A stretch of DNA of 31,559 nt from a virus, in the IMG/VR virus record IMGVR_UViG_3300024356_000027, positions 1-31,559 of that record. One strand, given 5' to 3'. Each line of letters begins with the position of its first letter. Within the stretch, counting starts at the first letter, position 1. The notes beneath the pieces were generated by a model. The model searched no databases. It was not told the DNA's origin and saw only the letters and a list, made by a program, of their open reading frames with translations. Position numbers and translations under genes: made by a program. This document shows positions 18,810 through 31,559 of the stretch, in pieces.

Positions 18810-19385
18810 TCAGAACCAAGCCGCAGCCGGGTCACGCCGGGGCTTGATAGTGGTCGGCCTTTTCTCGGCCATGGCACGCTTGTTCTGGATCGTCTTTTTG
18901 CACAGCACGGGCACGACCTGGATGGCGTCAGGCTCGCCGTTGGCTAGACCATAGAGTCGCATCGTCGTCCCCTTGGCGGGACGCCAGCCTGCGATCCTGA
19001 TCTTGTCGAGCGCGTGCAACTCGTGCAACGACCTGCGGGTAAAGGCCAGTGAGTAGCCGCTCTCGACGGACAGTTCGCTCACGCTCATCATCGGCTCACG
19101 TTCAAGGGCAGCGAGGATACGTTTAGTGCAGAGAACTTCCCCGGTAATGACTGTGGGAAACGCATTGAGACTCTTGCCAGTCCAAGCGTAAACACCGGCC
19201 TTGTTGCCGCCAAGTGGTGGGTGGGGCAAGTAGCGAATAACCCGCACGTAGCCCCCTCGCTTGAGTTCGGCAAGTGCAGACTTAACCGTGCCGTTGCCTT
19301 GCTTAAACAACTTGACCATCTCGGCAACGGTCATCTGTTTGCCCATCATCAAATTCTTCAGGATTCGCTCTTTACAGTACGCCAT
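18810..19385 (-). CDS. winged-helix DNA-binding protein
   Basis: A 191-residue protein with two helix-turn-helix-like repeats: residues about 5-60 (ILKNLMMGKQMTVAEMVKLFKQGNGTVKSALAELKRGGYVRVI) and about 88-140 (RILAALEREPMMSVSELSVESGYSLAFTRRSLHEL). Each is followed by a wing-like strand, and the tail is basic (KRPTTIKPRRDPA). The layout suggests a tandem winged-helix regulator or replication accessory protein. ATG at 19385 has GAGG four bases upstream. A longer frame reaching 19613 overlaps the upstream gene and is out of character. It overlaps the previous gene by 14 bases. Confidence 0.75.
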   Translation of the reverse strand: MAYCKERILKNLMMGKQMTVAEMVKLFKQGNGTVKSALAELKRGGYVRVIRYLPHPPLGGNKAGVYAWTGKSLNAFPTVITGEVLCTKRILAALEREPMMSVSELSVESGYSLAFTRRSLHELHALDKIRIAGWRPAKGTTMRLYGLANGEPDAIQVVPVLCKKTIQNKRAMAEKRPTTIKPRRDPAAAWF

Positions 19386-20015: not shown

Positions 20016-20182
20016 TGCTCCCTCGCACGGACGATCTTCTCGGCCTCACGCTGGCGGTCGAGGTCGCTCTTGTTCTCAACGTCAATTTGGTCGATCAACG
20101 CCTCAAATTCTCTGCACTGTCTGCATTTGTGGCATTGCTTATCACAGCGCCGGTAGATTTTTGTTGACCACTTCTCGTTCAT
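20012..20182 (-). CDS. 56-aa Cys-cluster protein
   Basis: A short frame between the methyltransferase and the zinc-ribbon gene: MNEKWSTKIYRRCDKQCHKC, then RQCREFEALIDQIDVENKSD and a charged helix. Cys at 13, 17, 20 and 23 could bind one metal. It starts in an ATGA overlap with the methyltransferase stop and ends in an ATGA overlap with the next start, exactly the operon's spacing rule, which supports it as a real gene. Function unknown. Confidence 0.72.
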   Translation of the reverse strand: MNEKWSTKIYRRCDKQCHKCRQCREFEALIDQIDVENKSDLDRQREAEKIVRAREQ

Positions 20183-21339
20183 TTTAGATACGCCTCTATG
20201 AATGCTTGCGCGACTTGCGGGACGATGGCGTTACCGTAGGCGCGCAGTCGTCCCACTCGATTGGCAACCCCATGAGCCAGCGGGAATGTGCCGGGTTCAA
20301 CTGGCCTCCACTTCCCGTCGCGGCAGTAGAGCCAATCTGCATCTCGCCAGTGGCCGTTAGTCGGGCCGGGCCGTCGAGGTCCGTCAAGAACATCACCGCC
20401 TGCTTGGACACAGGCGACTTGCTGCCGCCCTTTCTCGCCCACTCGGTTTTCATGCTTTCGTAGGACCGACGACTGTGGTTGTCGTCCGCCACCGATGGCG
20501 TCCCCCAGCCCGTCAAGTTCGCCTGGCGAGGCAACTGATCCAAGCGTAGCGATCCGTCCGATCTCGGCTTGATGTCCGCACCCGAGTCCTTCCAGTCTCT
20601 TGTTGTTGTTGTTGTCCACCCCGCCAACGTCGATGCCATCCCCAGCGTCATCCCGAACCCGTTGTGGCCGTGTCCATACCTCGCTTTTACTTCCGCTCGC
20701 CGTTGCTCCCAACGAGAGTCCGTGTCGTTCTGCGGCCCCGCATTTGGCGTCGGCCAGCCCGTTAGCCAGGTTGATTTCGGCAGTGAACTCTGCTTTCGTC
20801 CAGGCGCTTGCGATTGCCCCGCTCTCGCGTCCTCGGCGTTCGGAGTCGGCCACCCAGTAGAGTCGCTGTCGGATGTGCGGCGCACCGACGCCCGCAGCGC
20901 ACAGATCGGATGCTGCGCTGGCGTAACCCGATCCTTCCAAGTCAGTCTGTACAAGGTCGAGCCAAGCGAGACCGTCCTTGCTTGCAACTTGTTCGCCAAA
21001 GACGACTGGAGGGCGGCACTGGCTGATGAGCCAGTGGAACGCGGGCCATAAGTGCCGCTCGTCATCAAACCCAACACCTTTGCCTGCCGCGCTGAAAGGT
21101 TGGCATGGGCATGATCCAGTCCAGACTGGTCTGTCGTCAGGCCATCCGGCAAGTCGCAACGCCCGGCTCCAGACTCCGATGCCTGCAAAGAAGTGACACT
21201 GGGTATACCCGGCAAGTTCATCTGGTCGAATATCTTCAATTGATCGCTCATCCACTACTCCTGGTGCAATGTGCCCCGCCGCAATAAGGTTTCGCAACCA
21301 CTGCGCGGCGTACGGGTCGATCTCGTTGTAAAAGTTCAC
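20179..21339 (-). CDS. DNA cytosine-5 methyltransferase
   Basis: A 386-residue C5-MTase with motif I HFFAGIG (about 50-56), motif IV GSCPCQPFS (catalytic Cys about 79), and motif VI as GEQV (115-118) where most enzymes have ENV. It also has motif VIII APHIRQRLYWVAD (about 154-165) and motif X AYGNAIVPQVAQAFI near the end. It transfers methyl from SAM to DNA cytosine, probably protecting phage DNA. GTG 21339 is chosen because GGAGG lies 9 bases upstream and it makes a GTGA overlap. The region between motifs VIII and X has ADSERRG / LADAKCG / LGDAIGG repeats and carries another ORF in the +1 frame. Confidence 0.92.
   Translation of the reverse strand: MNFYNEIDPYAAQWLRNLIAAGHIAPGVVDERSIEDIRPDELAGYTQCHFFAGIGVWSRALRLAGWPDDRPVWTGSCPCQPFSAAGKGVGFDDERHLWPAFHWLISQCRPPVVFGEQVASKDGLAWLDLVQTDLEGSGYASAASDLCAAGVGAPHIRQRLYWVADSERRGRESGAIASAWTKAEFTAEINLANGLADAKCGAAERHGLSLGATASGSKSEVWTRPQRVRDDAGDGIDVGGVDNNNNKRLEGLGCGHQAEIGRIATLGSVASPGELDGLGDAIGGGRQPQSSVLRKHENRVGEKGRQQVACVQAGGDVLDGPRRPGPTNGHWRDADWLYCRDGKWRPVEPGTFPLAHGVANRVGRLRAYGNAIVPQVAQAFIEAYLK
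20196..21251 (-). CDS. overlapping ORF nested in methyltransferase gene
   Basis: 351 codons lie fully inside the methyltransferase gene, in the +1 frame of the same strand. ATG 21251 has its own AGGAG 6 bases upstream. The protein has STLYRLTWKDRVTPA, ALRASVRRTSDSDSTGWPTP, four GW-(P/T/G)-T-(P/T) repeats, and a C-terminus GGQLNPAHSRWLMGLPIEW. From memory these resemble a widespread family of phage proteins coded beside or across cytosine methyltransferases, some of them not overlapping (LTWK..., GLWPTP..., LNP..VEWLMGFP). That makes a chance ORF less likely. Function unknown; a partner of methylation is an inference. GC-rich constraint from the main frame could also create it. Confidence 0.65.
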   Translation of the reverse strand: MSDQLKIFDQMNLPGIPSVTSLQASESGAGRCDLPDGLTTDQSGLDHAHANLSARQAKVLGLMTSGTYGPRSTGSSASAALQSSLANKLQARTVSLGSTLYRLTWKDRVTPAQHPICALRASVRRTSDSDSTGWPTPNAEDARAGQSQAPGRKQSSLPKSTWLTGWPTPNAGPQNDTDSRWEQRRAEVKARYGHGHNGFGMTLGMASTLAGWTTTTTRDWKDSGADIKPRSDGSLRLDQLPRQANLTGWGTPSVADDNHSRRSYESMKTEWARKGGSKSPVSKQAVMFLTDLDGPARLTATGEMQIGSTAATGSGGQLNPAHSRWLMGLPIEWDDCAPTVTPSSRKSRKHS

Positions 21340-21575
21340 TCGCCACGACCTCCGCATTCGCTACAGACAGATCCGTCATACGCTCCCTCGCCCGAGCCAT
21401 TGCAGGCAGAGCAGACGCCTTCGTCATCTTCATCATCGCGGCCAAACCAGTCCATCAGCCGCTTCAATCGGATCTCGATCAGCTTCTCATCGACTTCACC
21501 ATAAGGATTGCCCAGCCACGCATTGTGCAGGCTGGTGACCAGCCTGTGCATGTGTTCATACTCTTTGTTCACCAC
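21336..21575 (-). CDS. small protein with DnaJ-like Cys motifs
   Basis: A 79-residue protein: an N-terminal helix (EYEHMHRLVTSLHNAWLG), an amphipathic middle (EKLIEIRLKRLMDWFGRDDEDDEG), and at 54-79 CSACNGSGEGAYDGSVCSECGGRGE. The latter has two CxxCxGxG-type repeats as in the DnaJ zinc-finger domain, with one zinc site expected. The start is GTG (21575 or 21572) with GAGGAGG just upstream. Both ends overlap neighbours. Function unknown. Confidence 0.72.
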   Translation of the reverse strand: MVNKEYEHMHRLVTSLHNAWLGNPYGEVDEKLIEIRLKRLMDWFGRDDEDDEGVCSACNGSGEGAYDGSVCSECGGRGE

Positions 21576-24551: not shown

Positions 24552-26475
24552 CATCCTTTGGTGCGATTTTGAGACAAAATCGCGTGTGGACTTAAACAAG
24601 CATGGGGTTTATTCGTATGCCCAAGACGCGACCACAGAAGTCCTGTGCATGTCCTATGCGTTCGATGATGAACCCGTCCAGACATGGACGCCTGACCAAC
24701 CGTTCCCCGAGCGGGTGCGGCAGTATGAGGGACAGATCAGGGCGCACAACGCCGCCTTTGAGCGCCTGATCTTCTGGTACGTCCTGCAGATCAATTTCAA
24801 GCTGGAACAGTTCTACTGCACCGCCGCGCAGGCACGGGCGAACTGTGCGCCAGGCTCGCTGGAGGATGTAGGCCGGTTCGCCAGCGCGTCCATGAAGAAA
24901 GACCATCGTGGGGCGCAACTGATCCGCCTGCTGTGCATCCCGCAGGCTGACGCATCGTTCCGGCAGGACTCCGACCTGATGGCCGAACTGATCGCCTATT
25001 GCGAGCAGGACGTTCGCGCCATGCGGGCGGTCAGCAACGCCATGCGCGATCTGTCGGACGAGGAACTGGCGGATTATCATGTAAACGAACGGATCAACGA
25101 CCGTGGCGTGCTGGTCGATGTTGACCTGTGCCGTGCTGCGATCAAGTACGCCGCCGATGAACTGGTCGAGATTGAGGCCATCGTTGCTGAGGTGACGCAG
25201 GGCGAGATCACCAGCGTGCGGTCGCCCAAGATGCGCGAATGGGTCTGGCAGCGTGTGGGCGAGGAGGCCCGCAAGCTGATGCAGGTCGATGACCGGGTAT
25301 CAATCGACAAGACCGTCCGGGCTAACCTGCTGACCCTAAACCCTGACCAAGTGCCGCCCGATGTGGCCGAGGTGATCCAGTGCGCCGATGACCTGTGGGC
25401 CTCTAGCGTTGCCAAGTTCAAGCGTCTGGCTGATCTGGCCGATGAAGAAGATCGCCGCGTCAGAGGCGCGTTCGTGTTCGCTGGCGGCAGCGCGACGGGT
25501 AGGGCGTCGTCCTACGGCGCTCAGGTGCATAACTTCGCCCGTGCGACTGCGAAGGCTCCGAATGCCGTGCGGCACGCGATGGTGCGCGGTCACAAGATCG
25601 TGCCCGAGTTCGGTCGCCGGGTGACCGATGTGCTGAAGGGAATGCTCAGGCCTGCGCTTGTGCCTGCGCCGGGGCATGTGCTCATCGTAGCAGACTGGTC
25701 GGCCATCGAGGCGCGGATGAACCCGTGGCTGTCTGCCGAGCCGACCAGCGAGGTCAAGCTTGACCTGTTCCGTACCGGCGCGGATGTGTACAGACACAAT
25801 GCGTCTGCGACCTTCCATGTGCCGGTCGATCAGATCGACAAAGAGCAGCGCCAGATCGGCAAGGTGCAGGAGTTGGCCTGCGGTTACGGTGGCGGCATTG
25901 GCGCGTTCGCTGCGATGGGCCGCATCTACGGCGTGCATTTGCCCGAGGCGGACTCGCGCCGCATGGTAGACGCATGGCGGCGGGCGAATCCGTGGGCCGT
26001 GCGCTACTGGCAGGATCTGGAGTCGGCCTACCTGCGTGCGATGAGGAACAAAGGCACAGAATTCAACGCCGGTCGGGTGACGTACTATTTCGACGGTCAG
26101 CACCTCTGGTACGCCCTGCCCAGTGGGCGTATCCTCTGCTACCCGTATGCCCGACTGGAGACTGAAGGCGTGACCTACGCTAAGGCGTCATGGAAGCCTG
26201 CCGCCGATGCGAAGGAATGGCCTCGGGCGCGGCTGTGGAAGGGGCTAGCCTGCGAGAACATCTGCCAAGCAGCGGCCAATGATGTCCTACGGGCGACGCT
26301 GCGCCAGGTGAACGCCGTCCTGCATGTGCATGACGAAGTGGTGCTGGAAGTGCCCGATGCCGATGCGGAGGCCGAGATGACCCGACTGCAGGAAGTGATG
26401 TGCACCCCGCCCGAGTGGGCGCAAGGGTTGCCTTTGGACGCTGAAATTAACGTAATGGAGCGTTACGGAAAATGA
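24544..26475 (+). CDS. family A DNA polymerase with 3'-5' exonuclease
   Basis: A 643-residue protein. The exonuclease domain has DFETKS (Asp8, Glu10), HNAAFE (68-73) and YCEQD (152-156). The polymerase domain has motif A VADWSAIEAR (Asp384), motif B RQIGKVQELACGYGGG (436-451) and motif C LHVHDE (about 593-598). It is the replicative polymerase of the phage. ATG 24544 overlaps the HNH stop; ATG 24532 is an in-frame alternative four codons earlier. Neither has a strong ribosome binding site, so translation may be coupled to the HNH gene. In motif A, the usual DYSQIE is DWSAIE. There is no 5'-3' exonuclease domain. Confidence 0.96.
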   Translation: MTNILWCDFETKSRVDLNKHGVYSYAQDATTEVLCMSYAFDDEPVQTWTPDQPFPERVRQYEGQIRAHNAAFERLIFWYVLQINFKLEQFYCTAAQARANCAPGSLEDVGRFASASMKKDHRGAQLIRLLCIPQADASFRQDSDLMAELIAYCEQDVRAMRAVSNAMRDLSDEELADYHVNERINDRGVLVDVDLCRAAIKYAADELVEIEAIVAEVTQGEITSVRSPKMREWVWQRVGEEARKLMQVDDRVSIDKTVRANLLTLNPDQVPPDVAEVIQCADDLWASSVAKFKRLADLADEEDRRVRGAFVFAGGSATGRASSYGAQVHNFARATAKAPNAVRHAMVRGHKIVPEFGRRVTDVLKGMLRPALVPAPGHVLIVADWSAIEARMNPWLSAEPTSEVKLDLFRTGADVYRHNASATFHVPVDQIDKEQRQIGKVQELACGYGGGIGAFAAMGRIYGVHLPEADSRRMVDAWRRANPWAVRYWQDLESAYLRAMRNKGTEFNAGRVTYYFDGQHLWYALPSGRILCYPYARLETEGVTYAKASWKPAADAKEWPRARLWKGLACENICQAAANDVLRATLRQVNAVLHVHDEVVLEVPDADAEAEMTRLQEVMCTPPEWAQGLPLDAEINVMERYGK

Positions 26476-27173
26476 AGCATGTCATTGGACTGTCTGGTGG
26501 CAAGGATTCGACGGCGCTGGCGCTACGTCTGGCTGAAATCGAACCGAGAGATTACGAATACATCTGCAACGAAACCGGCAACGAACTGCCCGACATGCAG
26601 GCGCATTGGGCGCGGCTAGAGGAGATGCTAGGCAAACCGATCAAGCGCGTGCGGTACTCCAAAGACCTTGAAGGTACGATCAAGCAGATGAACATGCTGC
26701 CCAGCGTGTTTGCGCGTTGGTGTACTCGCGTGCTGAAGATCGAGCCGACCATCGAGTACATGGCCGCGCTGCCTGCTGGATCGGTTCTGTACGTCGGCCT
26801 GCGAGCCGATGAGGAGGAGCGTAAGGGGCTGTTCGGGGAGGATATCGCCATCCGGTTTCCCATGCGCGAATGGGGATGGAAGGAGGCCGACGTATGGGCC
26901 TACCTTGACCGGCGAGGTGTTTGCATCCCCAAGCGTACCGACTGCGCCCTGTGTCCGTATCAGCGCCTTGGGGAGTGGCGCGATCTGCACGATAACTACC
27001 CGGTCATCTGGGCCAAGGGCGTGCAGTTAGAGCGCGAGATCGGCGCAACCTTCCGCAGCCCAAGCCGTGATACATGGCCGGCGGATCTGGAATCGCTGGG
27101 CAAAGAATTCGCCAGTGGCCGCAAGCTGCGGGCGTACAAACGCAACGAGACATGCAGGGTATGCACACTATGA
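26472..27173 (+). CDS. PAPS reductase-like PP-loop protein
   Basis: A 233-residue protein with the PP-loop SGGKDS at 8-13, which binds the pyrophosphate of an adenylated substrate. ARWCTRVLKIEP and YVGLRADEEERKG follow, both typical of the PAPS-reductase/DndC branch, then TDCALCPYQRLGEW and a closing CRVCTL. The Cys groups could hold an iron-sulphur cluster. Relatives reduce phosphoadenylylsulphate, or activate sulphur for DNA phosphorothioation (DndC). Neither role is shown here. It overlaps the polymerase stop (ATGA) and the primase start (ATGA), so it is in a replication operon. Confidence 0.85.
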   Translation: MKHVIGLSGGKDSTALALRLAEIEPRDYEYICNETGNELPDMQAHWARLEEMLGKPIKRVRYSKDLEGTIKQMNMLPSVFARWCTRVLKIEPTIEYMAALPAGSVLYVGLRADEEERKGLFGEDIAIRFPMREWGWKEADVWAYLDRRGVCIPKRTDCALCPYQRLGEWRDLHDNYPVIWAKGVQLEREIGATFRSPSRDTWPADLESLGKEFASGRKLRAYKRNETCRVCTL

Positions 27174-29464
27174 TTTTCCTTGACTGGCTGATAAGCCTCG
27201 CCCCGCAGGGCGAGACGCCGCTGATCGTGCGGCAGAAACCCAAGAACCCCCGCAGCTATCACGCCGATGGGGCGCTGAAGTGCACATGGCCTGCGTTCCT
27301 GCCGGACGCATTAAAGATCAAGCCCGACCAGGCATGGTATGGCAACACCGCATCGTTCATCATTGATCGGTTTGAGAACGGTCAGGTGAGCGCCAGCGCG
27401 GCTAATTGCGAGTACTGCCTCGTCATGGTGCTGGACGACATTGGAACCAAAAGCGCCGGGCCGCCTCTTGAGCCGACTTGGATCATGGAAACCTCGCCGG
27501 GTAACTTCCAGTGGGGCTACGCCTTCTCCGATCAGCCGACCAAGGCCGATTTCGCTGCGGCCATCGTCGCCATTGCCGAGGCAGGCTATACCGACCGTGG
27601 GGCGTGTAACCCGGTGCGGAACTTTCGCCTGCCAGGCAGCGTGAACCTCAAGCCCGACAAGGACAACTTCGCAGCGCGGCTGGTCGAGTTCCACCCTACC
27701 CGTGAGTTCACGCTAGAGGGCATCTGCGCCGCTCTAGGGGTGACGCCTGCCGAGTCCGACGGCGCAGCGTACAAACCGATCAGGCTCACCGATACCGGAT
27801 CTGATGACGTATTCGCATGGCTGGCCGATCAGGGGCTGGTGTTGTCCAAGCCTAACCCGGAAGGGTGGGCGGGCATCATCTGCCCGAATGCTGGCGAGCA
27901 TACCGACGGCAACCCCGAGGGCCGTTACCTGCCTGCCTCAAGGGCGTTCTGTTGCCTGCATTCGCACTGCGTGGATCTGGACTCGGCGTGGTTCCTGAAA
28001 TGGGTAGCCGACCAGGGTGGGCCTGTCCACCGGGCCGGGCTGCGTGATGACCTGATCGCCTCGACTATGAGTGAGGCGCTATCACACCTGAAGCCGACCG
28101 ATTTCTTTTCCGATGACGCCCAGAAGGTGATTGAGGAGGTCAACACCCGTGAGCTTGGCCGGCTCGACAAGGCGCAGTGGTGGGATCGGTTCGCGTACGT
28201 GATCGACGATGATTCCTACTTCGATATGGAGAACCGTACCGAACTGCGCCGTGGGGCGTTTAATGCCCTGTACCGGCATGTCTCGTGTACGTCGATCCAC
28301 AATCAGCGCCGGGTTGAAGCGTCCATATGCTTTGATGAAAACCGCCAGGCGATGGGATCACGCATCCTGACCGGTATCACCTACGCACCAGGCGAGTCCG
28401 TGCTGGTGGCCCGTAATGGTGAGGTATTCGGCAACCGATGGCGTGATGGCCGCCCCAAGGTGTCCGGCGGGGGCGACGTCACGCCATGGCTCAAGCACTG
28501 CGAGAATCTGATCCCAGACCATGATGAGCGTGAGCATGTTTTCAACGTGATGGCCTACAAAGTCCAGCATCCCGAGGTGAAGATCAATCACGCCGTGCTG
28601 CATGGCGGTGACCAGGGGTGCGGTAAAGACTCCCTGTGGGCTCCGTTCCTGTATGCAGTGTGCGGCCCAGGTTTAGTTAACCGTGGCCTGCTGGACAATC
28701 AATCCCTCGAATCGCAGTTCGCATATGCCCTTGAGGCCGAGGTCATCATCCTGAACGAACTGCGCGAGCCGGAGGCCCGTGAGCGCCGCGCACTGGCGAA
28801 CAAGCTCAAGCCCATTATCGCGGCGCCGCCCGAGACGCTCCCAATTAACAGGAAGGGGCTGCACCCCTACCAGATGGTGAATAGGGCACTGGTGCTGGCA
28901 TTCTCAAACGACAGTGTACCGATCAGCCTAGACTCATCCGACCGTAGATGGTTCTGCCTGTGGTCGCATGCGCCTAGGATGAACCCGGACGATGCTGCAC
29001 GGCTCTGGCGTTGGTATAAGGCGGGCGGATTTGATGCGGTGGCGTCTTGGCTGCATGCAAGGGACGTTAGCGCCTTCAACCCAGGCGCAGCCCCTGCATG
29101 GTCGGCGTGGAAGGAAGCCATGATCGAAAACGGCATGAGCATGGCCGAGTCTTACCTAGTGAACCTTATCCGGAACCGTAGCGGTGAGTTTCAACGCGGG
29201 TTCGTCGGCGGGCCTTTCTACGCCGTCTGTGACCGTCTGCTGGGCGCTGCGCCGTCGGGTATTAAGATCCCCCAAGCGGCTTTGCTGCATGCCCTTAAAG
29301 AGGCCGGATGGACGGATCTAGGCCGGGTCGCATCGGCAGAGTATCCGACCAAAAAACATCTGTTCGCTGATCCGGCCATCCTGCGCCAATACAACAAATC
29401 AGACCTTAGACGGATGCTGGAAGAACCCGCGCAGGGGCCATCTAGGATGGCGGTAGTGAAATGA
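27170..29464 (+). CDS. primase-helicase (RepB-like primase + SF3-type ATPase)
   Basis: A 764-residue protein. The N-terminal third is an archaeo-eukaryotic-type primase like RepB: VMVLDDIGTK (about 84-94, acidic pair), ETSPGNFQWGYAF, then NFRLPGSVNLKPD (about 151-163). A Cys-containing region follows (GIICPNAGEH, FCCLHSHCVD). The C-terminal part is an SF3/VirE-like ATPase with Walker A GGDQGCGKDS (479-488), a likely Walker B region EVIILNELREPE, and a sensor-like segment RALVLAFSNDSVPI. It synthesises primers and unwinds the fork for the family A polymerase upstream. ATG 27170 (ATGA overlap) is chosen. It ends at a strong terminator. Confidence 0.9.
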   Translation: MIFLDWLISLAPQGETPLIVRQKPKNPRSYHADGALKCTWPAFLPDALKIKPDQAWYGNTASFIIDRFENGQVSASAANCEYCLVMVLDDIGTKSAGPPLEPTWIMETSPGNFQWGYAFSDQPTKADFAAAIVAIAEAGYTDRGACNPVRNFRLPGSVNLKPDKDNFAARLVEFHPTREFTLEGICAALGVTPAESDGAAYKPIRLTDTGSDDVFAWLADQGLVLSKPNPEGWAGIICPNAGEHTDGNPEGRYLPASRAFCCLHSHCVDLDSAWFLKWVADQGGPVHRAGLRDDLIASTMSEALSHLKPTDFFSDDAQKVIEEVNTRELGRLDKAQWWDRFAYVIDDDSYFDMENRTELRRGAFNALYRHVSCTSIHNQRRVEASICFDENRQAMGSRILTGITYAPGESVLVARNGEVFGNRWRDGRPKVSGGGDVTPWLKHCENLIPDHDEREHVFNVMAYKVQHPEVKINHAVLHGGDQGCGKDSLWAPFLYAVCGPGLVNRGLLDNQSLESQFAYALEAEVIILNELREPEARERRALANKLKPIIAAPPETLPINRKGLHPYQMVNRALVLAFSNDSVPISLDSSDRRWFCLWSHAPRMNPDDAARLWRWYKAGGFDAVASWLHARDVSAFNPGAAPAWSAWKEAMIENGMSMAESYLVNLIRNRSGEFQRGFVGGPFYAVCDRLLGAAPSGIKIPQAALLHALKEAGWTDLGRVASAEYPTKKHLFADPAILRQYNKSDLRRMLEEPAQGPSRMAVVK

Positions 29465-29946: not shown

Positions 29947-30702
29947 TCAATAATGAATGCCAAGACGCTGAACGAACCCGCTAGCGTCATGCTTTGCTTT
30001 GCCTTTGGCGTACAGCGCGACGACGACACGAGCCGGCTCGATGTGGCGCACGTCGGTGTCATCGCCATCCACTACAGGCCATCCACGAAAGTTTGCGGGT
30101 ATCTCATCGCGCTTGTGGAAGACGACAGCTGTGCGCTTGTTGTCCGGGTTCTGCAGGCCTTTGATGCTGATAGGTTTAGGCGTGACGGCAGAGAATGAAT
30201 ACGTTAGGTCATAGTTGCCTGCAGTCTTACCGGACAGATTGCGCGCAGGATGCTTGGTGTAGTCATAAAACTGGACGTCTGGAAACAATTGGAAGATTGT
30301 CTTCCCATCCAATACCGGGATGTTTTCAAAAGGGATGTCAGACGTGCCATTCGGGCGGACTAGCGGTGTCATGCCGAGCCGAGATGCCTTGCGGGTTAAC
30401 GTCCAGACGTCCGCACAGAATGACAACATGAACGCTTCGCGGTTCTGACGAAAGAATGCAGTCTTGGCATCCCTTGCACGTTGGACAGAATCGAACGCGC
30501 CCCGTCCGGCGGATCGCAGGCATCCTGCCATGCATCCGGCCAGTTTTGCGAGCGGACATAGTTCATCGTCGGGAGATAGGTACAGGATGCCGGTAAGAAA
30601 ACCGATCCGCTCACCTTTCACAGTCTTGGCGGAAGACCCACCGAGAATCGGACGGTAGGGCAGATGCTTTGCCTTCAGGATTGCACGGTAGGGGTTTTGC
30701 AT
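29947..30702 (-). CDS. GP88-like conserved phage protein with Cys cluster
   Basis: A 251-residue protein with KTVKGERIGFLTGILYLSP, then a Cys cluster LCPLAKLAGCMAGC (Cys 49, 57, 61) and LRSAGRGAF. Later come MTPLVRPNGTSDIPFENIPVLDG, FPDVQFYDYTKHPARN, WPVVDGDDTDVRH and ARVVVALYAKGKAKHDASGF. I recognise this as a widespread phage/plasmid family (gene product 88 type), still of unknown biochemical function. The spaced Cys and the Arg/Asp-rich core (RPNGTSD, DGDDTD) suggest metal or cluster chemistry on a TIM-barrel-like frame, by inference only. Its ATG has GGAG 8 bases upstream. Confidence 0.82.
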   Translation of the reverse strand: MQNPYRAILKAKHLPYRPILGGSSAKTVKGERIGFLTGILYLSPDDELCPLAKLAGCMAGCLRSAGRGAFDSVQRARDAKTAFFRQNREAFMLSFCADVWTLTRKASRLGMTPLVRPNGTSDIPFENIPVLDGKTIFQLFPDVQFYDYTKHPARNLSGKTAGNYDLTYSFSAVTPKPISIKGLQNPDNKRTAVVFHKRDEIPANFRGWPVVDGDDTDVRHIEPARVVVALYAKGKAKHDASGFVQRLGIHY

Positions 30703-30720: not shown

Positions 30721-31038
30721 TTACATGCGACCGTTCATGTCGCGCAGATCGTTGCGGGTAAACGTCCACGCTTCGCCGTTGATTTTGTACGTCAGGGTTG
30801 CGTAGTGATCTTGCTTGGCAAGGGCGGGCGCAACGATGTCGCAAACGATGGCAGACCATGCGTCATAGGCAACGCTCTCGGTGTCCTCTTCAGTGTAAAG
30901 ATGATCGTACGCATCGTATGCGCCATCGTCGAAGTAGAAACCCGCGTCGCACTGCGTCACAGGCACAGTGCCAAGAACAGCATCAGCACCGAATGGGGTG
31001 TCGAGGGGAAGGCTGTAGTCAATCCAGAAGTTTTGCAT
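30721..31038 (-). CDS. acidic hypothetical protein, first gene of operon
   Basis: A 105-residue protein rich in Asp, Tyr and Ala (DAGFYFDDGAYDAYDHLYTEEDTES), then WSAIVCDIVAPALAKQDHYATL and TYKINGEAWTFTRNDLRDM. The very acidic surface resembles DNA-mimic or anti-host early proteins in a general way, but no family is recognised. ATG 31038 has GGAG 7 bases upstream, matching the downstream genes' leaders. The frame reaching 31257 would cover the promoter and is rejected. Confidence 0.68.
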   Translation of the reverse strand: MQNFWIDYSLPLDTPFGADAVLGTVPVTQCDAGFYFDDGAYDAYDHLYTEEDTESVAYDAWSAIVCDIVAPALAKQDHYATLTYKINGEAWTFTRNDLRDMNGRM

Positions 31039-31136: not shown

Positions 31137-31188
31137 GGCATGAACATGGGCGGTTCAGGGTAACGGCGCGATCCCCTGTATTCATGCC
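31137..31188. repeat. inverted repeat upstream of the operon promoter
   Basis: GGCATGAA (31137-31144) and TTCATGCC (31181-31188) are exact reverse complements. Between them CAGGG and CCCTG pair again, and a GGGCGGTTCAGG copy of the right-end 12-mer lies at 31148-31159. It may be an operator or structured site just upstream of the -35 box. Confidence 0.5.
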
Positions 31189-31204
31189 GAAAGGCAAGGC
31201 TTTT

Positions 31205-31313
31205 GGGCGGTTTAGGTATAGGTCTGTAGTTTTTTCGGCTAAGTAGGTATTTGACATAATGTATGTATAGCCGTGGAGCCGCGCCGACTTAAATTGGTAT
31301 GCCCAAACCGCCC
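31205..31313. repeat. outlying copies of the 12-mer motif
   Basis: GGGCGGTTTAGG (31205-31216) and CCCAAACCGCCC (31302-31313) are single copies, in opposite orientation, of the 12-mer that makes up the palindromic modules to the right. The stretch between is AT-richer (T6 at 31230-31235, TTGACATAATGTATGTATAG) with no gene on either strand. TTGACA here has no -10 at usable spacing on the plus strand. Confidence 0.6.
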
Positions 31314-31357
31314 AAATGACCTAACTCGACCCATCGCGCCGTCCGGCGCATGTTCTT

Positions 31358-31500
31358 GGGCGCTTTAGGTCATGCCTCATGCCATAGCCTAAAGCGCCCA
31401 TCTGATAGGCGTTCTGGGTCATGCCCCGACCCATAGCCTAAACCGCCCATCTGCCTTTAGGCGTTCTGGGTCATGCACTCAGCCATAGCCCAAAGCGCCC
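31358..31500. repeat. three 42-bp palindromic repeat modules
   Basis: Three modules begin at 31358, 31407 and 31459. Each is a 12-mer (GGGCGCTTTAGG or AGGCGTTCTGGG), then an 18-base spacer of form TCATGC-six variable-CCATAG, then an opposing 12-mer (CCTAAAGCGCCC, CCTAAACCGCCC or CCCAAAGCGCCC). The half-sites start exactly 30 bases apart in all three. The first module's arms are perfect reverse complements. Possible roles are an iteron-type replication origin or operators for a dimeric phage regulator. No ORF is present. Confidence 0.8.
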
Positions 31501-31505
31501 ATACC

Positions 31506-31559
31506 GGTCGGCGGTCGGCGGTCGGCGGTCGGCGGTCGGCGGTCGGCGGTCGGCGGTCG
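31506..31559. repeat. heptamer tandem repeat (GGTCGGC) to window end
   Basis: 54 bases are made of GGTCGGC repeated 7.7 times without a mismatch, running off the right edge. True copy number is unknown; an assembly may have broken here because of the repeat. Confidence 0.9.

Follow-up and report, generated by a model that had tools for sequence, protein, structure and literature searches.

An iteron array upstream of terS tracks the winged helix of a VapE-type primase-helicase and is a likely replication origin in an uncultivated phage family

The right end of a 31,559-nucleotide stretch of viral DNA (IMG/VR virus record IMGVR_UViG_3300024356_000027, positions 1 to 31,559, one strand; hereafter the window) carries an array of about 20 short direct and inverted repeats, or iterons, of 9 bp, located at 31147-31501. 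Our analysis indicates that this array is quite likely the replication origin of the phage, its iterons being bound by a predicted winged helix at the C-terminus of the VapE-type primase-helicase encoded in the same window. Computation establishes the anatomy of the array, its conservation, its presence once in each genome, and a tight link between the sequence of the iterons and the VapE wing. A homologue search with the window VapE protein returned 80 viral contigs; below, close relatives are the four contigs L009 to L012, whose VapE is 92-97% identical to that of the window, and in more distant relatives this identity is about 60-68%.

The array is real. A 13-mer, TGGGCGSTTTAGG, allowing at most one mismatch, has seven matches in the window, all of them within 355 bp (31147-31501), where shuffled sequences give an expectation of 0.03. 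The original prediction, made from the sequence alone, had described an array beginning at 31358 and consisting of three evenly built 42-bp palindromes, each with two opposed 12-mers, plus outlying single copies. Mechanical repeat finding recovered the three modules at 31357-31401, 31406-31450, and 31458-31502 (80-87% identity to the middle copy) with a start-to-start spacing of the opposed 12-mers of exactly 30 bases in every module and module periods of 49 and 52 bases, and placed the single half-site copies at 31147, 31204, and 31302. The even construction applies to module 1 alone, which is a clean palindrome with 18-nt arms of 89% complementarity; in modules 2 and 3 the left arm agrees with the consensus at only about 9 of 13 positions, and these two modules pair poorly. 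The unit of the array also proved to be different from the one proposed, as the 12-mer covers roughly 1.5 iterons of 9 bp, each 42-bp "palindrome" is composed of two tandem iterons opposite two inverted iterons, and the supposed conserved spacer frame (TCATGC...CCATAG) is in fact the second iteron of each arm. Nor does the array start at 31358, the first iterons lying already at 31147. The contig ends 58 bp past the last module within a (CGGTCGG)n repeat, and thus the right-hand context must come from relatives.

All four close relatives carry the array in the corresponding position, with module 3 absent or degraded in one of them (L012). Small leftward genes lie to its left, and to its right are a short G/C-rich conserved stretch followed by terS, terL, and the portal gene. 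In these relatives the array is intergenic and non-coding, rather than being part of a gene or replaced by unrelated sequence, and the variation of the module periods from 49 to 52 is likewise evidence that the repeat does not code for protein. Searches of these four contigs for Rfam families and tRNAs returned no match. The (CGGTCGG)n repeat is perfect at 31505-31559 of the window, and relatives have variable heptads at this point; then, directly ahead of terS, comes a G-run / C-rich stretch with strong conservation, GGGGGGGAGGGCCGAG...GTTAGCGGTGGGGCCACAAGAA (about 7620-7700 in L009), which is a possible packaging (cos/pac) or regulatory site.

More than 100 distant viral contigs also carry an equivalent array, always upstream of terS at a distance of 0.1-1.1 kb, with an iteron that is specific to the lineage. 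The iterons of distant relatives are different but equally regular (e.g., TGTGGACAA, TTTGGGTCA, TAGGGTCAA, and GTAGTCATG). When exact 6-mer self-matches were counted by lag in 35 deduplicated phages, a peak appeared at lag 9 (306 matches vs. 41.5 in control stretches) and was visible in 30 of the 35. Of 18 complete or near-complete genomes, 15 (two of these tied) have their densest short-repeat window 0.5-1.1 kb upstream of terS, and one array per genome was found. The arrangement of the sites is also shared: among 46 TGTGGACAA-class arrays, which come from phages with the KSR wing described below, the sites bordering the core are in the ++ orientation on its left in 45 and in the -- orientation on its right in 39, and the core itself has a median length of 91 bp and an AT content of 67%, compared to 59% for the arrays. 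In many lineages the core has a GCGACTTAAAA-like element at its right edge, with AT content reaching 72% around this element. The window follows the order of its relatives, with a ++ pair at 31204-31221, a core containing CCGACTTAAAT, and then an inverted cluster. Among the relatives, MW202483 (L089) alone is a named record, and it too is metagenome-derived; its array, with the different iteron TGTTTACAT, lies about 0.6-1.1 kb upstream of terS, from which it is separated by an annotated homing endonuclease gene. Bacterial matches are metagenome bins without exception.

Iteron sequence is coupled to one part of VapE. Per-array expectation-maximization motif finding on both strands produced degenerate symmetric motifs, and counted 7-mers were used instead. 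In a comparison of iteron and protein distances over 35 phages, the VapE C-terminus was the best predictor of iteron distance (r = 0.40), and this correlation was still significant after controlling for TerS, TerL, or the rest of VapE; once the VapE C-terminus was controlled, TerS retained a partial r of -0.01. A scan of all 40-residue windows of VapE, TerS, TerL, and PolA in four data sets ranked VapE 691-730 (r = 0.48) first of 84, 132, and 186 windows in three of them, and TerS N-terminal windows ranked low. Residues 691-730 comprise the recognition helix and wing of the predicted winged helix. Wings of the IKSRxxD type, with K719/R721 and D723 (KSR wings), pair with TGTGGACAA iterons, xASx..P wings with GGGTCA or TTGTCA iterons, MSRDYP wings with GTAGTCA iterons, and further wing types with further iterons.

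This pairing has changed repeatedly. On a tree built on VapE 1-640, which excludes the C-terminus, there are 13 changes of iteron class and 12 of wing class, with the classes agreeing in 52 of 55 phages; among 10 independent pairs on the tree, 8.4 changed in the same direction and 0 in the opposite direction (p about 0.008). Several changes amount to natural swaps between near-identical phages. L023 and L017 are 100% identical in TerS and in an SSB-like protein, 99% in TerL, and 97% in VapE 1-640, while their a3 helix and wing are only 61% identical and their iterons differ (TGTGGACAA vs. TGGGTCATT). Further swaps of wing and iterons together were found in the pairs L055/L053, L063/L044, L066/L051, and L029/L027. 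Across the natural-swap pairs TerS and TerL are each 98-100% identical and the iterons completely different, a pattern that does not fit well with reading of the iterons by TerS. A rule fixed beforehand, under which a wing with both K719 and R721 should go with six or more occurrences of GTGG, was applied to 79 unseen loci from additional contigs and was correct in all 36 KSR-wing loci and in 36 of 43 others (Fisher p = 8e-16); of the seven misses, four concern arrays that lie close to the threshold and are rich in GC or repeat only weakly. Locus L167, in which K719 is present, R721 is absent, and the iterons are TGACCC, points to R721 and D723. Based on these sequence comparisons, VapE is very probably the protein that reads the iterons, which agrees with the suggestion in the original prediction that the primase-helicase was one possible binder.

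VapE is predicted to consist of an N-terminal primase-polymerase-like domain, an SF3/D5-type helicase (DUF5906, scoring above the curated cut-off), and a C-terminal winged helix. An AlphaFold2 model gives the C-terminal region as a winged helix with a3 at residues 700-709 and the wing at 719-726, with pLDDT (predicted local distance difference test) values of about 80-90, and the structural neighbors of this domain are winged-helix domains with modest scores. The body of the protein matches the folds of the NrS-1 helicase, the SaPI5 and PriRep1 helicases, and D5/E5. NrS-1 is the best match of the helicase part in both sequence and structure; we know of no iteron array for NrS-1. No second copy of the VapE winged helix, such as a nuclease fusion like Odn, was found in the loci searched, the lone apparent match being a vapE gene cut at a piece boundary. 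The features of the array and of vapE are collected in Table 1.

Table 1. Coordinates of array components and of the proposed initiator in the window.
Feature	Position	Strand	Remarks
Outer left iteron pair, TGGGCGGTT / CAGGGTAAC	31147..31164	+	retained in L009 to L012
Inner left iteron pair, TGGGCGGTT / TAGGTATAG	31204..31221	+	++ pair bordering the core
AT-richer core	31222..31296	not assigned	putative strand-opening element
Conserved CCGACTTAAAT	31284-31294		inside the core; GCGACTTAAAA in many relatives
Inner right cluster, GTATGCCCA, AACCGCCCA, AATGACCTA, CTCGACCCA	31297..31333	-	four tandem inverted iterons
Module 1	31357..31400		+ iterons 31357-31374 opposite - iterons 31383-31400
Module 2	31406..31449		+ iterons 31406-31423 opposite - iterons 31432-31449
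Module 3	31458..31501		+ iterons 31458-31475 opposite - iterons 31484-31501
VapE-type primase-helicase	27176..29464	+	proposed initiator
Predicted winged helix, VapE codons 656-731	29141..29368	+	a1-b1-a2-a3-b2-wing-b3; proposed iteron-reading domain
Wing codons 719-726	29330-29353	+	

The layout of the array runs from a left ++ pair through an AT-richer core of roughly 75-90 bp and a right -- cluster to three facing two-iteron modules. Contact of VapE with this DNA, opening of the core, loading of the helicase, and function as an origin are inferred. The C-terminal winged helix of VapE would bind the iterons as double-stranded DNA, and oligomers assembled on the facing iteron sets would open the AT-rich core, at which the SF3 helicase ring would then be loaded. 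The N-terminal domain of VapE may prime synthesis and the family-A polymerase of the phage extend it. The facing pairs of sites would be expected in such a scheme because a double-ring helicase requires them.

Several observations weigh against assigning origin function to the array and its reading to VapE. The original prediction had proposed an inflection in GC skew as a check, and none consistent over 18 genomes is present at the array. The array is about 1.7 kb downstream of vapE in the window and 2-8 kb from it elsewhere, beside terS. In the smallest data set of the window scan (18 phages), a PolA window ranked slightly above VapE. One phage, L086, has a KSR wing without GTGG iterons, and two others, L074 (with GC-rich repeats) and L030, disagree under a simple count rule. 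When the winged helix was searched by itself with Foldseek, no match had an E value below 0.001. Finally, the short distance between vapE and the array would allow both to be exchanged in one event, and this linkage could explain part of their co-change. The coupling persists, nonetheless, in a linkage control of 1,262 pairs in which less than 15% of the intervening DNA is alignable: 44% of KSR-wing pairs are above an iteron similarity of 0.3, compared to 0 of 653 mixed pairs.

Four other explanations of the array were considered. In phage lambda, the cosB R sites are repeated protein-binding sites just upstream of terS, and a comparable packaging site, with tandem TerS-binding sites near a cos or pac cut, would fit both the constant position of the array 0.1-1.1 kb upstream of terS and the conserved G/C-rich stretch between them. 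The iteron sequence of the present arrays does not follow TerS as this would require: iterons are unrelated between phages with 98-100% identical TerS and TerL, identical TerS proteins would need to recognize unrelated iterons, TerS distance adds nothing to what VapE predicts, and the N-terminal windows of TerS rank low. We consider a packaging role very unlikely, the natural swaps having largely refuted it already, and a packaging site may still be present in the G/C-rich stretch adjoining the array. Several near-full-length contigs have the short terminal repeats of circular assembly, with breaks at many places and no fixed ends at the array, and so point to neither cos nor pac. An operator, at which VapE or another protein bound to the iterons would control divergent early and late transcription without the array being an origin, is also improbable, if less so than packaging. 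The array does lie between leftward small genes and the rightward terS, cumulative T-A skew peaks near it in most genomes, as expected for a divergent junction, and iteron-bound initiators often repress neighboring promoters as well. However, about 20 iterons around an AT-rich core exceed the needs of an operator, the best-tracking protein is a helicase and not a repressor, and just one weak promoter-like match was found, away from the modules. We found nothing to favor the particular operator suggested in the original prediction, one controlling a minus-strand operon at 31038, and the leftward open reading frame at 30721-31038 is not conserved in relatives. The interpretation given there is supported in part: its other proposal, replication-origin iterons, is well supported at the level of sequence and fares better than the operator, with a 9-bp unit and a ++ / AT-rich core / -- layout in place of the palindromes.

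Recruitment of the host initiator, or of a phage protein with a DnaA-type helix-turn-helix, to iterons acting as DnaA boxes has little to recommend it. The TGTGGACAA and TGTGGATAA iterons of many relatives are 0-1 base from a DnaA box, and MW202483 and some others encode a protein of this type. Yet a match to the DnaA box TTATNCACA within one or two bases is limited to the TGTGGACAA class; the window iterons TGGGCGNTT and TGGGTCATG, and many others, are unlike DnaA boxes, neither the window nor the majority of loci has the DnaA-type gene, and the box-like iteron class switches along with the VapE wing. The DnaA-type protein was rejected as a general binder for its patchy occurrence. It contains a DnaA DNA-binding domain (PF08299) and is encoded between vapE and terS at L089:7083-7379 (MW202483) and in L070, L071, L048, L041, L068, and L088, and not in the window. 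Least plausible of all is action of the modules as RNA or single-strand hairpins, whether attenuator, terminator, or single-strand origin. Module 1 could form such a structure from its arms, but two of the three window modules pair poorly, many window iterons and most of those in relatives are tandem copies without a facing partner, and no Rfam family was matched in relatives. The winged-helix protein encoded at 18810-19385, which the original prediction had named as another possible binder, was rejected; it cannot read a family-wide array, as none of the other 81 loci searched, all relatives, has a homologue.

Comparison of the proposed origin with known systems shows both shared and divergent features. 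The alpha protein of phage P4 is a single polypeptide with a primase, an SF3 helicase, and, at its C-terminus, a winged-helix domain that binds the origin, and the P4 origin has short repeated iterons adjoining an AT-rich stretch, with a second iteron locus, crr, also needed. VapE is predicted to have a similar make-up, with a C-terminal winged helix proposed to bind the iterons, and these too adjoin an AT-rich stretch; unlike in P4, no second iteron locus was found, and the structure matches listed for the VapE winged helix do not include the P4 domain. In phage-inducible chromosomal islands (PICIs), two iteron sets flank an AT-rich region (PMC6092414), as they do here. The Rep protein of Staphylococcus aureus pathogenicity islands (SaPIs) is described, in work cited in PMC7581432 (Ubeda et al. 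2007), as recognizing its own iterons via its C-terminal domain, and it has been suggested to bind as two hexamers (PMC7581432). The likeness extends to the SF3/D5-type helicase (structures 7ola and 7pds), with SaPI5 and PriRep1 among the VapE fold matches, and to the C-terminal DNA-binding domain proposed here as the iteron reader. In contrast, PICI and SaPI origins are immediately 3' of the initiator gene, whereas the present array is beside terS, 2-8 kb from vapE; it belongs to a tailed phage with its own family-A polymerase and not to a satellite; and it has extra facing two-iteron modules, for a total of about 20 sites. We do not class it as a PICI/SaPI-type origin, since it is not positioned behind the initiator gene, but as one that may work like it.

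The likeness to the NrS-1 primase-polymerase-helicase (PMC7102993; 6k9c, 6k9e, and 6lrb) covers only the helicase part of VapE. An evolutionary parallel is seen in the phage-inducible chromosomal island-like element (PLE) satellites, in which the origin covaries with the RepA DNA-binding domain and both have been swapped several times, with swaps protecting from an origin-directed nuclease (PMC8263062). The habit of switching DNA-binding domain and origin together is shared with those analyzed here, which are full phages. The PLE initiator is a RepA_N protein with an N-terminal DNA-binding domain, its iterons are semi-palindromes of about 30 bp, and compatibility after swaps was shown by experiment (PMC7145576, PMC8263062); the RepA_N fold and this iteron type are unrelated to VapE and its 9-bp iterons.

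Elsewhere in the window, the minus-strand gene at 18810-19385 encodes two winged-helix-like stretches with MarR_2/IclR/GntR matches and is unique to the window among the relatives searched. A DNA cytosine methyltransferase is encoded at 20179-21357 (-), overlapped in another frame by a long open reading frame at 20196-21251. The product of 29947-30702 (-) is a GP88-family protein (PF17338, phrog_1617) with weak relatives in only two loci, L085 and L087. Between the polymerase gene and vapE is a phosphoadenosine-phosphosulfate-reductase-like gene (26472-27173, +), also found in one relative, L015, where it is 88% identical even though the L015 vapE is just 67% identical, suggesting recent exchange.

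In conclusion, the repeated joint switching of a few wing residues and the whole array between near-identical phages may mark a modular replicon in a widespread uncultivated lytic-type phage family, with an origin-specificity code under conflict, a view that we hold to be evenly balanced between true and false. Origin-directed nucleases, satellites, and competing co-infecting phages can be guessed at as sources of conflict, and conflict over the origin stays a guess because of the lack of a winged-helix fusion copy in the loci searched. If the array is the origin and VapE its initiator, this would locate the origin and name the initiator for a metagenome-abundant phage family with almost no named member. 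It would also supply a readable code, as the iteron class could be predicted from eight wing residues and the origin of a new genome found from it. How initiators change specificity could be studied in the many swaps that nature has already made between near-identical phages, and these swaps suggest that selection acts on phage origins themselves. Such an origin, if confirmed, would be usable in plasmids that compete with these phages, or report on them, in their hosts.
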